Below are positions 4,776-41,862 of a DNA stretch of 64,000 nucleotides, in pieces. Under the pieces are notes generated by a model. The model was not told the DNA's origin, searched no databases, and worked only from the letters and a program-made list of their open reading frames with translations. Each line of letters opens with the position of its first letter. Position 1 is the first letter of the stretch. Source of the stretch: Haloarchaeobius amylolyticus (GTDB lineage: Archaea > Halobacteriota > Halobacteria > Halobacteriales > Natrialbaceae); the NCBI RefSeq assembly GCF_026616195.1, contig NZ_JANHDH010000001.1, positions 1,054,001 through 1,118,000 of the forward strand, read 5' to 3'. A program made the translations under genes and the position numbers.

Positions 4776-4850
4776 GCTCCGTTGGTGTAGTCCGGCCAAT
4801 CATCTTGCCCTCTCACGGCAAGGACCAGGGTTCGAATCCCTGACGGAGCA
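4776..4850 (+). tRNA. tRNA-Glu (anticodon CTC)
   Basis: A 75-base cloverleaf. Acceptor arms gctccgt and acggagc pair fully and A is the discriminator base. The anticodon stem ttgcc/ggcaa encloses the loop ctctcac, giving anticodon CTC. The T-arm is ccaggg-ttcgaat-ccctg. CCA is not encoded and no intron is seen. It is followed by a palindromic region whose arms resemble this T-arm. Confidence 0.96.
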
Positions 4851-4912
4851 CTTCTCTCGAACTCAGACCGACGAGCGATAGCGAGTCGTGTCTGATGCTG
4901 TCAATGCGGAAG

Positions 4913-5018
4913 CAGGGATTCGAGCAGTGAGCGGTGCGCGGTTCGAAGTGAAACGAGAACCGCGAGGCGAACGGCGTAGCCGTGAGCAACACGGAGCGAG
5001 TGAGTTCGAATCCCGACG
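4913..5018. repeat. palindrome with tRNA-Glu-like T-arm sequences
   Basis: Left arm cagggattcgag (4913-4924) and right arm ttcgaatcccg (5005-5015) are inverted and match the T-arm of the tRNA-Glu just upstream. The interior holds two smaller hairpins (gcggttc/gaaccgc and acggc/gccgt) and ends in ggagcgagtga, the same end as the other tRNA-linked palindromes in this window. Confidence 0.7.
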
Positions 5019-5139
5019 ACCACTTCTCACGAAGCAAGTTCCCGAGCGATAGCGGTGGATTTGCGAAGATCGCGTTACTCGGTCTGGGTCTGGAGACGTG
5101 TCTACTGGGAGATCCGTCTTCGACTATAACGGATAGATT

Positions 5140-5197
5140 GGGCAGATTTGAACCAGCGAGCACCGCGAAGCGGTGCGAGTGAGGTCCAAATCTCCCC
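5140..5197. repeat. palindrome with tRNA-Val-like T-arm sequences
   Basis: Left arm gggcagatttgaacc (5140-5154) pairs with ggtccaaatctcccc (5183-5197); both copy the T-arm of the nearby tRNA-Val. The interior agcgag-caccgc-gaa-gcggtg-cgagtga forms a second perfect inner stem. It lies downstream of tRNA-Val in that gene's direction. Confidence 0.75.
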
Positions 5198-5206
5198 GTG
5201 TTCCAT

Positions 5207-5268
5207 CTTACGAAACACGAACTTCTCGCTCGCTACGCTTCGCTCGAAGGGATTGTGTTTCGTAAAAG
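5207..5268 (-). repeat. hairpin directly after tRNA-Val, possible terminator or processing element
   Basis: Perfect 11-base arms ttacgaaacac (5208-5218) and gtgtttcgtaa (5255-5265) enclose a core containing tcgctcgctacgcttcgctcg, the reverse complement of the GCGAGCGAAGCG-type core of the other palindromes. It starts immediately after the 3' end of tRNA-Val, and on the minus strand begins with a short T-run, so it could terminate or define the 3' end of that transcript. Confidence 0.6.
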
Positions 5269-5343
5269 TGGGTTGGGGCAGATTTGAACTGCCGACTTCC
5301 TCCGTGTGAAGGAGGTGTCATAACCGGACTAGACCACCAACCC
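5269..5343 (-). tRNA. tRNA-Val (anticodon CAC)
   Basis: On the minus strand a 75-base cloverleaf begins GGGTTGG and ends CCAACCC-A. The anticodon stem cctcc/ggagg encloses ttcacac, giving anticodon CAC. The T-arm is ggcag-ttcaaat-ctgcc. No intron, CCA not encoded. A TATA-like cttaagttt on the minus strand at about 5376-5386 is a plausible promoter. Confidence 0.96.
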
Positions 5344-38916: not shown

Positions 38917-39774
38917 TCACTCGTTGAGTGTCAGGCAGGCAAGCGTCGCGAACAGAGCTTCCTCCGTTCTGACGACCTTGCTGCCCTGGTTCGGAATCGA
39001 GTTCAGCCAAAGGTCGAACCCTCCGGCGTTGGGTTCGGTGGCGTCCTCGTTTCGAGCGGCCTGTACATCGGCCACGTCGATGCCGAGTATTTCAGGCAGC
39101 CCTCTGCCCGGCGACCCGAACACGACGGTCATCCCGTCGTGCCGGATCTGCCCGGTCAGGCTCGCGAGTCGCCCCACGGTGAGTTCTTCACCGTGGCGCG
39201 AGGTCGCGATGCATAGCCCGGCGTCTTCACGCCCGAGCGCTGCCTGGAGGCCCGTGCGTTCGACGACGAGGCCCTCGATGGGCTCGTCGGCGAGTCGCGC
39301 ACGGACCGGACGTCGCGAAGATACCCTGACGGTTACGCGTTCTCCCTCGTCGGGCACCTCCATATCGGGTGGTGCGACGAGCGAGATCGGGTGTTGCAGT
39401 CCGCAATTGACCCGGACGCGCCTGTCAGGTCCGACCTCGGTCACGATTCCCTGTCTTAACGACCCCGAACCGTCTGATTCGGAGCCGGTCTGCGACGAGG
39501 CGCGGAGCGGCGGCAAGATACCGGCGTACTCCAGTTCGCTTCGATGCCCCCACGCCTCCTTTCGGAGGTAGGGGGGTGTCGTCGCGTATTCGAGTACGGT
39601 GCTGACGAACCCGCCACCCCATCTGGTCTCGCCGTCTTCGTCGGGGAAGACGACCAGCCTGTCTGCCCGGAAGACCGTCGCCGCACGGGCGACGTAGCCG
39701 ACCTTGCGAGTTGCCTCGCGTTTGTCTTCGGCTTCCCGGACGAGGGATGACGGCACGAGCACGCTGGTGGTCAT
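38917..39774 (-). CDS. SPOUT-family RNA (uridine) methyltransferase-like protein at head of S10 cluster
   Basis: A 285-residue protein of the SPOUT1/C9orf114-like (DUF171) family. VLVPSSLVREAEDKREATRKVGYVARAATVFRADRLVVF begins the alpha/beta-knot half; an OB-like insert (about residues 95-170) follows; the SAM-binding knot end has VVFGSPGRGLPEIL and WLNSIPNQGSKVVRTEEALFATLACL. It probably methylates rRNA N3 of a uridine, fitting co-expression with ribosomal genes. ATG 39774 starts MTTSVLVPSS. Assignment to the exact position on rRNA is not possible from sequence. Confidence 0.85.
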   Translation of the reverse strand: MTTSVLVPSSLVREAEDKREATRKVGYVARAATVFRADRLVVFPDEDGETRWGGGFVSTVLEYATTPPYLRKEAWGHRSELEYAGILPPLRASSQTGSESDGSGSLRQGIVTEVGPDRRVRVNCGLQHPISLVAPPDMEVPDEGERVTVRVSSRRPVRARLADEPIEGLVVERTGLQAALGREDAGLCIATSRHGEELTVGRLASLTGQIRHDGMTVVFGSPGRGLPEILGIDVADVQAARNEDATEPNAGGFDLWLNSIPNQGSKVVRTEEALFATLACLTLNE

Positions 39775-40049: not shown

Positions 40050-40120
40050 GCACTGGTAGTGTAGTGGTATCACGTGACCTTGCCATGGTCACAACCTGGG
40101 TTCAAATCCCAGCCAGTGCA
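40050..40120 (+). tRNA. tRNA-Gly (anticodon GCC), copy 1
   Basis: A 71-base cloverleaf with acceptor gcactgg/ccagtgc and discriminator A. The anticodon stem tgacc/ggtca encloses ttgccat, giving GCC. T-arm ctggg-ttcaaat-cccag. Identical base for base to the gene at 41528. Confidence 0.97.
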
Positions 40121-40195
40121 TTTCTCCGAAACTCACACCCAAGAGCGACCGCTTTGCGTGTCGCGAGCATGGTCGAGTTTCGGTGGATGCGTGAC

Positions 40196-40254
40196 GCTGG
40201 AATTTGAACCAGCGAGCGAAGCGCCAGCGGAGCGAGTGAGGTTCGAATCCCAGC
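40196..40254. repeat. palindrome with tRNA-Gly T-arm copies (copy A)
   Basis: Left arm gctggaatttgaacc (40196-40210) and right arm ggttcgaatcccagc (40240-40254) are inverted with two mismatches and copy the T-arm of tRNA-Gly. The core is agcgagcgaagcgccagc followed by ggagcgagtga. Confidence 0.8.
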
Positions 40255-40347
40255 CAGCCGGTTCACAATCCCGGCCCACCCAGCCACCCGACTCCTCGTT
40301 TCGCTTCGGTAACCCGTATCAACGATTCTCTCCTCTCTCTACCTGTC

Positions 40348-40647
40348 ATGAGCGCGCTGTTCGCGGGGGGGTGGCGACCGTTCGTCAGGGACCTCCTGCT
40401 CATCTTCGCCGTGTTGGTTCTCGTCAGCGTCACCTTCGCCGGCTACAACACGCTGACCTACGTCGCGGTGCTGGCCGCCCGGGTCACCCGGGACATGTTC
40501 CTCACCGGCCTCGGGGACGGCATCGAGATGTACCTGCTCGTCGGCGGGTTCCTCTTCGTCGAGGCGCTGATCGCCGCGACGGGCCTCGCACTGGTCAAGC
40601 GTCGCCTCCGCCGACTGTTCCGGTCGCCGCCGTCGTCGGCCGGGTGA
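40348..40647 (+). CDS. small two-span membrane protein
   Basis: A 99-residue protein with two membrane spans (LLLIFAVLVLVSVTFAGYN, about 16-34; YLLVGGFLFVEALIAATGLAL, about 62-82) and a basic C-terminus (VKRRLRRLFR). No known family recognised. It is the first of three genes between the tRNA-Gly repeats. Codon bias is normal for the genome. Confidence 0.65.
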   Translation: MSALFAGGWRPFVRDLLLIFAVLVLVSVTFAGYNTLTYVAVLAARVTRDMFLTGLGDGIEMYLLVGGFLFVEALIAATGLALVKRRLRRLFRSPPSSAG

Positions 40648-40700
40648 CTGCACGGTATAGCATGGCGCTGGCTTTAGCTGTGGGACGAGTACGGGACGGT

Positions 40701-40988
40701 ATGCACGAGACGTCCTCCCACTCGCGCTCGTTCGCCGCATCGGTCCTGCGGCTGACGGCCATCCTGCTCGGTCTCGCCCTGTTCGTCCCCGTCACGTTCT
40801 TCGCGTGGTACTTCGGCATCGTCGCCGCGGACCTGGTCCAGTTACAGCTGGGCCTGCCGGACGGCCTGTGGTTCGAGGTGGTCGCCGGGGTGGTGTTCGT
40901 CCTCGAGCTGCTGCTGGTCGCGACCGTCGTGGTCGCGTCCTCCCGGGTGGTGACCGACCTGACGGACCGGGCCGGCTCGGCACGCTGA
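40701..40988 (+). CDS. small two-span membrane protein
   Basis: A 95-residue protein with spans at about 15-37 (LRLTAILLGLALFVPVTFFAWYF) and 57-80 (FEVVAGVVFVLELLLVATVVVAS). The frame is open far upstream through the tRNA-Gly repeat, but ATG 40701 is the only credible start. Similar in architecture to the preceding gene, though not clearly homologous. Function unknown. Confidence 0.6.
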   Translation: MHETSSHSRSFAASVLRLTAILLGLALFVPVTFFAWYFGIVAADLVQLQLGLPDGLWFEVVAGVVFVLELLLVATVVVASSRVVTDLTDRAGSAR

Positions 40989-41025
40989 CACAGGCTTTTT
41001 ACCGTCCTCCCGAGTCGGAACGGGC

Positions 41026-41454
41026 ATGTCCTGGCGCGACATCAGACCGACAGCCCTGGGCCTCATCTGGCGCGACGACGAGCTGTTGCTCCAGCGGTAC
41101 GACGCGGCCGAGACGTTCTACCGGCCACTCGGCGGCGGGCTGGAGTTCGGCGAGCAGGCACGGGACGCGCTGGTCCGGGAGTTCCACGAGGAACTCGACC
41201 GGGAGGTCGTCCCCCGGGACCGCGTCGGGGTGCTGGAGAACGTCTTCACCTTCGAGGGGACGCCGGGCCACGAGGTGGTGTTCGTCTTCGAGGCCGAGTT
41301 CGCCGACGACGGCGCCTACGAGCAGGAGACGTTCGAGGGCGTCGAGGACGACGGGTCGGGGACGTTCACCGCGAGCTGGGAGCCTGTCTCGCGGTTCGTC
41401 GAGGGCTCGGCGACCCTCTATCCCGACGGCGTCGTCGACCTGCTCGACGCTTGA
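41026..41454 (+). CDS. Nudix hydrolase
   Basis: A 142-residue NUDIX protein that cleaves a nucleoside-diphosphate-linked substrate. The Nudix box GGGLEFGEQARDALVREFHEEL (about residues 37-58) matches Gx5Ex7REUxEE, with the metal-binding Glu pair present. The start follows a TATA-like ctttttaccg about 30 bases upstream. It is the last gene between the two tRNA-Gly repeats. Substrate unknown. Confidence 0.88.
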   Translation: MSWRDIRPTALGLIWRDDELLLQRYDAAETFYRPLGGGLEFGEQARDALVREFHEELDREVVPRDRVGVLENVFTFEGTPGHEVVFVFEAEFADDGAYEQETFEGVEDDGSGTFTASWEPVSRFVEGSATLYPDGVVDLLDA

Positions 41455-41527
41455 CCACCCCGCCGTCGCCGAGTCATATCGTAGGGTATTAGAAGGCTCG
41501 GCCCATCGGTTGAGGTGTAGTCGAAGC

Positions 41528-41598
41528 GCACTGGTAGTGTAGTGGTATCACGTGACCTTGCCATGGTCACAACCTGGGTTCAAATCCCAGCCAGTGCA
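41528..41598 (+). tRNA. tRNA-Gly (anticodon GCC), copy 2
   Basis: Identical in all 71 bases to the tRNA-Gly at 40050-40120. Its upstream region differs from copy 1 and has its own TATA-like tcatatcg/gtattag region at 41474-41492, so both copies may be expressed. Confidence 0.97.
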
Positions 41599-41672
41599 TT
41601 TCTCCGAAACTCACACCCACGAGCGACCGCTTTGCGTGTCGCGAGAACGGTCGAGTTTCGGTGGATGTCACA

Positions 41673-41729
41673 CTGTGATTTGAACCCGCGAGCGAAGCGC
41701 CAGCGGAGCGAGTGAGGTTCAAATCCCAG
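41673..41729. repeat. palindrome with tRNA-Gly T-arm copies (copy B)
   Basis: Left arm ctgtgatttgaacc (41673-41686) and right arm ggttcaaatcccag (41716-41729) pair with one mismatch. From 41716 the sequence ggttcaaatcccagccagt equals the 3' end of the tRNA-Gly gene over 19 bases. The core is cgcgagcgaagcgccagc then ggagcgagtga. Confidence 0.8.
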
Positions 41730-41862
41730 CCAGTCGAATCAAGAATGCAGCCACCGATATCCAGTTCCTGTTACCATCCGTGACACTCTCCACGATGGAC
41801 CTATAGGCCCGCTAACAGCCCTGTGCAAGGTTTTCCGGGTTTTCACATTCACTCCGGGGTGG

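Follow-up and report, generated by a model that had tools for sequence, protein, structure and literature searches.

Short non-coding units behind many tRNA genes of Haloarchaeobius amylolyticus and other haloarchaea repeat the 3' end of the tRNA that they adjoin, both as a direct copy and as a reverse-complement arm pairing with that copy. At a probability of roughly 0.5, we consider these units to be integrative cassettes without coding sequence, each restoring the 3' end of its tRNA and depending on a recombinase acting in trans, which would probably recognise a folded single strand.

Four tRNA genes and their trailers

The window, a stretch of 64,000 nucleotides, contains exactly four tRNA genes according to ARAGORN, which was run on the whole 64 kb. 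The sequence-only reading had placed a palindrome behind each of them, and ARAGORN together with the coordinates of the inverted and direct repeats confirmed all four positions. The first host, tRNA-Glu(CTC) (4776..4851, plus strand; ARAGORN and RF00005), is followed by a trailer hairpin, HP1, read from the sequence as cagaccgac-gagcgatagcga-gtcgtgtctg (4865..4895, plus strand), and by a second hairpin, HP2 (4913..5015, plus strand). The latter consists of an anti-T arm at 4913-4924, a long core that includes two inner hairpins, and a copy of the T-arm from 5004 onwards; its fold z is -4.3 on the plus strand, and positions 4913-4923 are 100% complementary to 4832-4842 within tRNA-Glu. The direct but diverged copy of the 3' end of tRNA-Glu (5004..5033, plus strand; direct repeats D7 and D2) continues into the displaced older trailer and resembles the distal trailer in a relative, genome G293.

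The second unit lies on the minus strand behind tRNA-Val(CAC) (5268..5343, minus; ARAGORN and RF00005). Its HP1, TTTTACGAAACAC...GTGTTTCGTAA, was recognised in the sequence at 5208..5267 (minus), and its HP2 occupies 5140..5197 (minus; repeats I5 and D4), with the 3'-end copy of the tRNA at 5137-5154 and an inverted repeat, 5140-5154/5183-5197, that is 87% complementary. The HP2 core, AGCGAGCACCGCGAAGCGGTGCGAGTGA, is inverted in orientation relative to the tRNA, whereas its G293 orthologue is oriented in the usual way.

Units 3 and 4 adjoin two copies of tRNA-Gly(GCC) on the plus strand, at 40050..40120 and 41528..41598 (both ARAGORN and RF00005). Behind copy 1, HP1 was identified by RNA folding at 40122..40187 (plus) and HP2 by repeats and RNA folding at 40196..40257 (plus), the latter divided into anti-T (40196-40210), core (40211-40239) and direct copy of the tRNA 3' end (40240-40257, repeating 40099-40116). 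Behind copy 2, HP1 (41600..41665, plus) is nearly identical in sequence to that of unit 3, and HP2 (41673..41734, plus; repeats and fold) comprises anti-T at 41673-41687, the core and a direct copy at 41716-41734, which matches 41577-41595 of the tRNA with 19/19 identity; the inverted repeat 41673-41686/41716-41729 is 93% complementary. Throughout 40050-41734 both genes and their trailers are near-identical and 1.4 kb apart, separated by an ORF judged by eye to be NUDIX-like (~41027-41453). This tRNA-Gly(GCC) pair is a local duplication in which the unit was copied along.

Over the whole window, GTTCRAATCC was observed six times against 0.19 expected, with every occurrence inside a tRNA or the palindrome behind it. 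An Rfam search of the window returned tRNAs and a ribosomal-protein leader and no family for the units; the leader, on the minus strand at 39326-39428, is of the L4-Archaeoglobi type (RF03135, 76.9 bits), here in a haloarchaeal genome. Right past the window end (G000:C1:1118200-1119000, locus L197) another unit stands behind a tRNA-like 3' end that is not among the RF00005 matches.

Organisation of the units

The units follow the order tRNA, HP1, short spacer, anti-T (the reverse complement of about nt 53-66), core and direct copy of nt ~53-73. HP1 abuts the tRNA, frequently in the frame C-GA-AC...GT-GA-G, and thus forms a separate hairpin between tRNA and palindrome, while HP2 is closed by pairing of the 3'-end copy with its reverse-complement arm. 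The direct copy, present besides the inverted arm, extends through the acceptor strand and sometimes into the trailer, by up to 11 nt (L197). Since the arms differ by tRNA, the earlier view that this is not one repeat inserted four times holds. Of the shared core that had also been proposed, the motif pair AGCGAG...GAGTGA does recur, but it represents only one of several core classes and is not itself palindromic.

Across this and related genomes we listed 112 candidate units with a median length of ~121 nt (range ~70-225 nt), a list that includes a few whole duplicated tRNA genes or weak matches. The units contain no gene. Arrays contain up to four units; the one behind tRNA-Lys(TTT), with the order M1-M2-M1'-M2', is a 221 bp tandem duplication. 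A second, shorter class occurs behind Ala and some Arg tRNAs; its arms derive from the acceptor strand, and its core has the reverse orientation. That the arm might be a copy of the 5' T-stem strand and not a true reverse complement was rejected where the T-stem has G-U pairs, as in Lys-TTT, whose arm reads gagga against ggggg.

Two peculiarities of the copies were seen. Many T-loop copies, in L133, L135, L139, L143, L144, L187 and others, have exactly one extra base (TTCACAATCC, TTCAACATC), which gives a bulge in the hairpin arm and recurs across different tRNAs. In two Haloferax Val-GAC loci (L074 and L086) the 3' arm of the unit is swapped for another hairpin, CACGCGAGCG(G/A)AGCGAGCGTG, after GGTTCA/GGTACA, possibly a nested insertion in the T-loop copy.

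Repeated 3' ends in the host genome and across haloarchaea

The host genome of 4.6 Mb yielded 50 tRNAs by RF00005, 49 of which were used in a 3'-end copy test that sought a tRNA's own nt 53-73 at 25-320 nt downstream with a local score of at least 14. The own 3' end was repeated behind 26 of the 49 tRNAs, compared with 1.7% for the ends of other tRNAs, and the maximum in 20,000 permutations was 8. Both the 5'-end control and the upstream control on these 49 tRNAs were null, and an ungapped 20-nt version of the test gave the same picture. With the acceptor part only, 19/49 tRNAs matched against 0.17% with other tRNAs, by which chance or generic T-loop likeness was rejected as an explanation. 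The proposal of an element family that copies the 3' half of its host tRNA is well supported by this tracking of the adjacent tRNA by arms and copies. Sequences were read in stretches around tRNAs and at a few checked sites; among these, an odd-tRNA cluster on a 754 kb contig (G000:C3:597400-599300; L025, L026, L032) contains Lys and Gly tRNAs that carry units.

The palindromes are not scattered away from tRNA genes in this genome, as all eight sites of the core I pattern, CAGCGAGC..GCGAGTGAG, lie behind a tRNA. In a scan of 84,980 species the Haloferax matches to the same pattern, and several of those in other haloarchaea, stood behind tRNAs of various kinds; the non-haloarchaeal matches, and some haloarchaeal ones lacking T-arm flanks, were not linked to tRNAs. 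The core III pattern, AGTCGCAGC..GACCGTCT..GTTCRAATC, specifies only a generic T-loop and no particular tRNA. It was present in 160 of 293 haloarchaeal genomes and 60 of 87 genera, with 0 matches for the reversed control. Same-strand tRNA ends were located less than 600 nt upstream at 30 of the 31 sites read, and at 29 of these 31 sites, which were found independently and come from 30 other genomes, the copy matched the adjacent tRNA's own 3' end, so that the arm tracking set out beforehand as a check extends to other genomes. Direct reading of tRNA flanks placed units in six haloarchaeal families, and none were found behind 32 tRNAs of other lineages in the phylum, a small sample. Core likeness above 0.9 was reached by 11% of pairs from the same tRNA in different genomes, against 1.3% when a pair came from different tRNAs of a single genome. 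The idea that identical cores spread strongly from tRNA to tRNA inside a genome was accordingly rejected, the signal being weak; movement between tRNAs thus appears to be rare, and most units look vertically inherited.

Integrated elements of haloarchaea are marked by duplications of tRNA 3' ends (PMC3119063, PMC8371274, PMC7921747), and a unit might on these grounds be the attachment-site scar of a provirus or plasmid that integrated at the tRNA and lost its interior by deletion. We regard this as distinctly unlikely. The 44 GTTCRAATCYC sites of the genome lie in tRNAs, in units within 300 nt or, for about four of them, are due to chance, and no T-arm copy is distant from its tRNA. Scans of 2.9 million viral contigs found no core class, and a viral origin was rejected; together, the two results indicate that the units cannot simply be terminal parts of larger known elements. 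Their size and internal plan are also too uniform for random deletion remnants.

Structure of the cores

The cores are conserved in their folding. A set of 20 hairpins of one core class, drawn from various tRNAs and genomes, shows pairing in 86% of cells and 71 double changes; its covariation score is 0.368, compared with 0.133 for shuffles and a maximum of 0.123 when structures were slid. Beside a conserved internal loop of core III lie helices with 82% and 85% pairing, for which shuffles did not exceed 61% and 64%. The AGCGAG and GAGTGA strands are mutually non-complementary, and folding as a single strand places them in tandem G.A mismatches; these do not form a palindrome in double-stranded DNA, and they point to recognition of a folded single strand. 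The apical loops, in the frame GA-RC-n-GY-GA, are GNA in 57 of 94 triloops, while 14 of 24 tetraloops are GNNA with a pyrimidine in third position and none is GNRA. Exceptionally stable DNA mini-hairpins are as a rule built on GNA and GNNA loops closed by G-C pairs (PMC4686876), and the loop types would thus indirectly favour DNA over RNA.

A functional RNA is a rival reading. If the trailer is co-transcribed with the tRNA, HP1 and HP2 could set 3' processing, termination or dosage, with the 3'-end copy as a decoy or toggling partner of the tRNA's own T-arm. Consistent with this, the pre-tRNA plus unit folds as cloverleaf, HP1 and HP2 (z -4.4), T, anti-T and T' are predicted to pair in two nearly equal ways, compensatory changes conserve the structure, and orthologous tRNAs partly share units. 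However, about half of the tRNAs have no unit, and whole blocks vary between close species. The G.A strand is antisense in the Ala/Arg class and in the Val unit of the window, which argues against a required transcript. Scrambling of anti-T had no consistent effect on predicted tRNA folding (mean acceptor pairing 0.19 in the wild type and 0.13 when scrambled), no Rfam family matches, and the loops fit DNA mini-hairpins better than RNA tetraloops. The scrambling test, in which 68 pre-tRNAs were folded, also gave no support to a shielding role, with HP2 preventing the copy from disturbing the tRNA. The suggestion of the sequence-only reading that an RNA structure processes the 3' end of the tRNA or competes with it gained no positive support, this one thermodynamic test of a protective role being negative, and we judge a role as RNA modules to be unlikely.

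Variation among related genomes

Species of the same genus differ by one whole unit at Val-GAC (119 bp), Thr-CGT (98 bp) and Val-TAC (107 bp). A same-genus pair also differs by one unit (110/111 bp) at Lys-TTT, where two units occur in opposite order. At all four loci the extra unit lies between the tRNA and a trailer that, in the other species, adjoins the tRNA directly; identity over the displaced part is 84-93%. Within Haloferax, H. marisrubri and H. denitrificans have a 133 bp unit, bounded by a 26-nt direct repeat, behind tRNA-Ser(CGA); four other species lack it, and H. gibbonsii has a hybrid form. Within arrays, the proximal copy was the better match to the tRNA in 11 pairs and the distal copy in 1, with 17 ties, the pairs being partly non-independent. 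The unit differences and this proximal bias fit stacking at the tRNA followed by decay, and we infer gain of units; the presence/absence pairs are also compatible with loss via recombination between the direct repeats. Neither a circular form nor a strain-level event was seen.

Events of this kind could also arise without a dedicated enzyme, as by-products of replication or recombination in which template switching at the symmetric T-loop combines with tandem duplication. Core inversion does occur, as the Val-CAC unit and its orthologue demonstrate, tandem duplication formed the Lys array, and direct repeats explain the loss of units. Such processes cannot, however, create conserved cores such as AGTCGCAGC...GACCGTCT, present in more than half of the genera searched, nor can they confine cores to the 3' sides of tRNAs in Halobacteria (0/32 tRNAs elsewhere in the phylum). 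We consider this explanation improbable.

Discussion

In the reading that we favour, each palindrome forms the right end of a small integrative cassette without coding sequence. The cassette would consist of a copy of the tRNA's own nt ~53-73, HP1, a spacer, the reverse complement of nt ~53-66 and a structured core. Its entry into the tRNA gene would take place in the T-loop or close to it, and the old 3' end and old trailer, displaced by the cassette, would become the 'copy' that closes HP2. As the cassette would bring a new 3' end, tRNA function would be kept. Successive entries would stack units behind the tRNA, and units could be removed via recombination between direct repeats of 20-30 bp. 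Since the cassettes have no enzyme of their own, active mobility would require a recombinase in trans. This would most likely be a tyrosine recombinase of the type targeting tRNA 3' ends, and the hairpin would probably be recognised in its folded form, as single-stranded DNA. In archaea, tRNA 3' ends are the preferred targets of tyrosine recombinases, of which several families are restricted to Halobacteria (PMC8371274). A search of the genome with the generic PF00589 gave nine matches, none of which adjoins an array. A double-stranded circle of 95-130 bp would be strained, which makes the classical double-stranded integrase route awkward.

A wider version of this reading would be an integron-like haloarchaeal system, in which tRNA genes are landing sites for hairpin-folded, single-stranded non-coding cassettes moved by a host or viral recombinase. 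Each insertion, into the T-loop, would restore the tRNA, and arrays would accumulate across the class. This wider version is offered tentatively and is rather doubtful.

If the cassette reading is true, tiny elements of a common but undescribed class occupy the 3' flanks of tRNA genes throughout Halobacteria, and these would account for the 'partial tRNAs' of genome annotations. With arms fixed by the host gene, the units would allow archaeal recombination on folded single-stranded DNA to be tested cleanly, as well as the survival of tRNA genes under repeated invasion. The cassette arrays would also provide a handle for strain typing and for enzyme discovery in the genetically tractable Haloferax.

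No published description of the unit family was found in searches of open-access full texts. The main text on Haloferax gibbonsii LR2-5 reports 11 partial tRNAs, several of them directly adjoining the full copy (PMC7921747), which are probably the same objects; that main text counts partial tRNAs only, with no hairpin, unit, array or family. In Methanopyrus kandleri a palindrome lies 10 bp behind tRNA genes (PMC5217627). Unlike the units, it has a single invariant sequence and includes no copy of a tRNA. REP/REPIN, MITE and the haloarchaeal PATE/SMR elements share with the units that they are short, non-coding, palindromic and non-autonomous. The units differ from them in being found only at tRNA 3' flanks, with arms that vary by host gene; genome-wide dispersal was absent, core I and core III lying behind tRNAs at 8/8 and 30/31 sites. 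The t-elements of Haloferax likewise resemble tRNAs in sequence; they differ from the units in being tRNA-like RNAs used for processing.

The units resemble integron cassettes and CALIN arrays in forming arrays behind a fixed site, in which the proximal unit appears newest, and, as in attC, in their variable hairpin ends, complementary arms and strand asymmetry. The units, however, have no ORF, and their arms are tRNA sequence. The R-box consensus of attC is GTTRRRY / RYYYAAC, whereas the unit arms end in GTTC / GAAC, with C in place of R as the fourth base (alignment A1).

With elements that use tyrosine recombinases to target tRNA genes (SNJ2, pNOB8 and SSV types) the units share the restored 3' end and the direct repeat of that end beside an intact tRNA, and such elements are known to target the T-stem-loop and the 3' end (PMC8371274). 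At ~120 bp (~70-225 nt), the units differ in having neither integrase nor cargo, in forming arrays with no distant attR and in a reverse-complement arm that tracks the tRNA. As every defined family departs from the units in at least one tested feature, we class them as working like tRNA-targeting integrative cassettes and assign them to no family.
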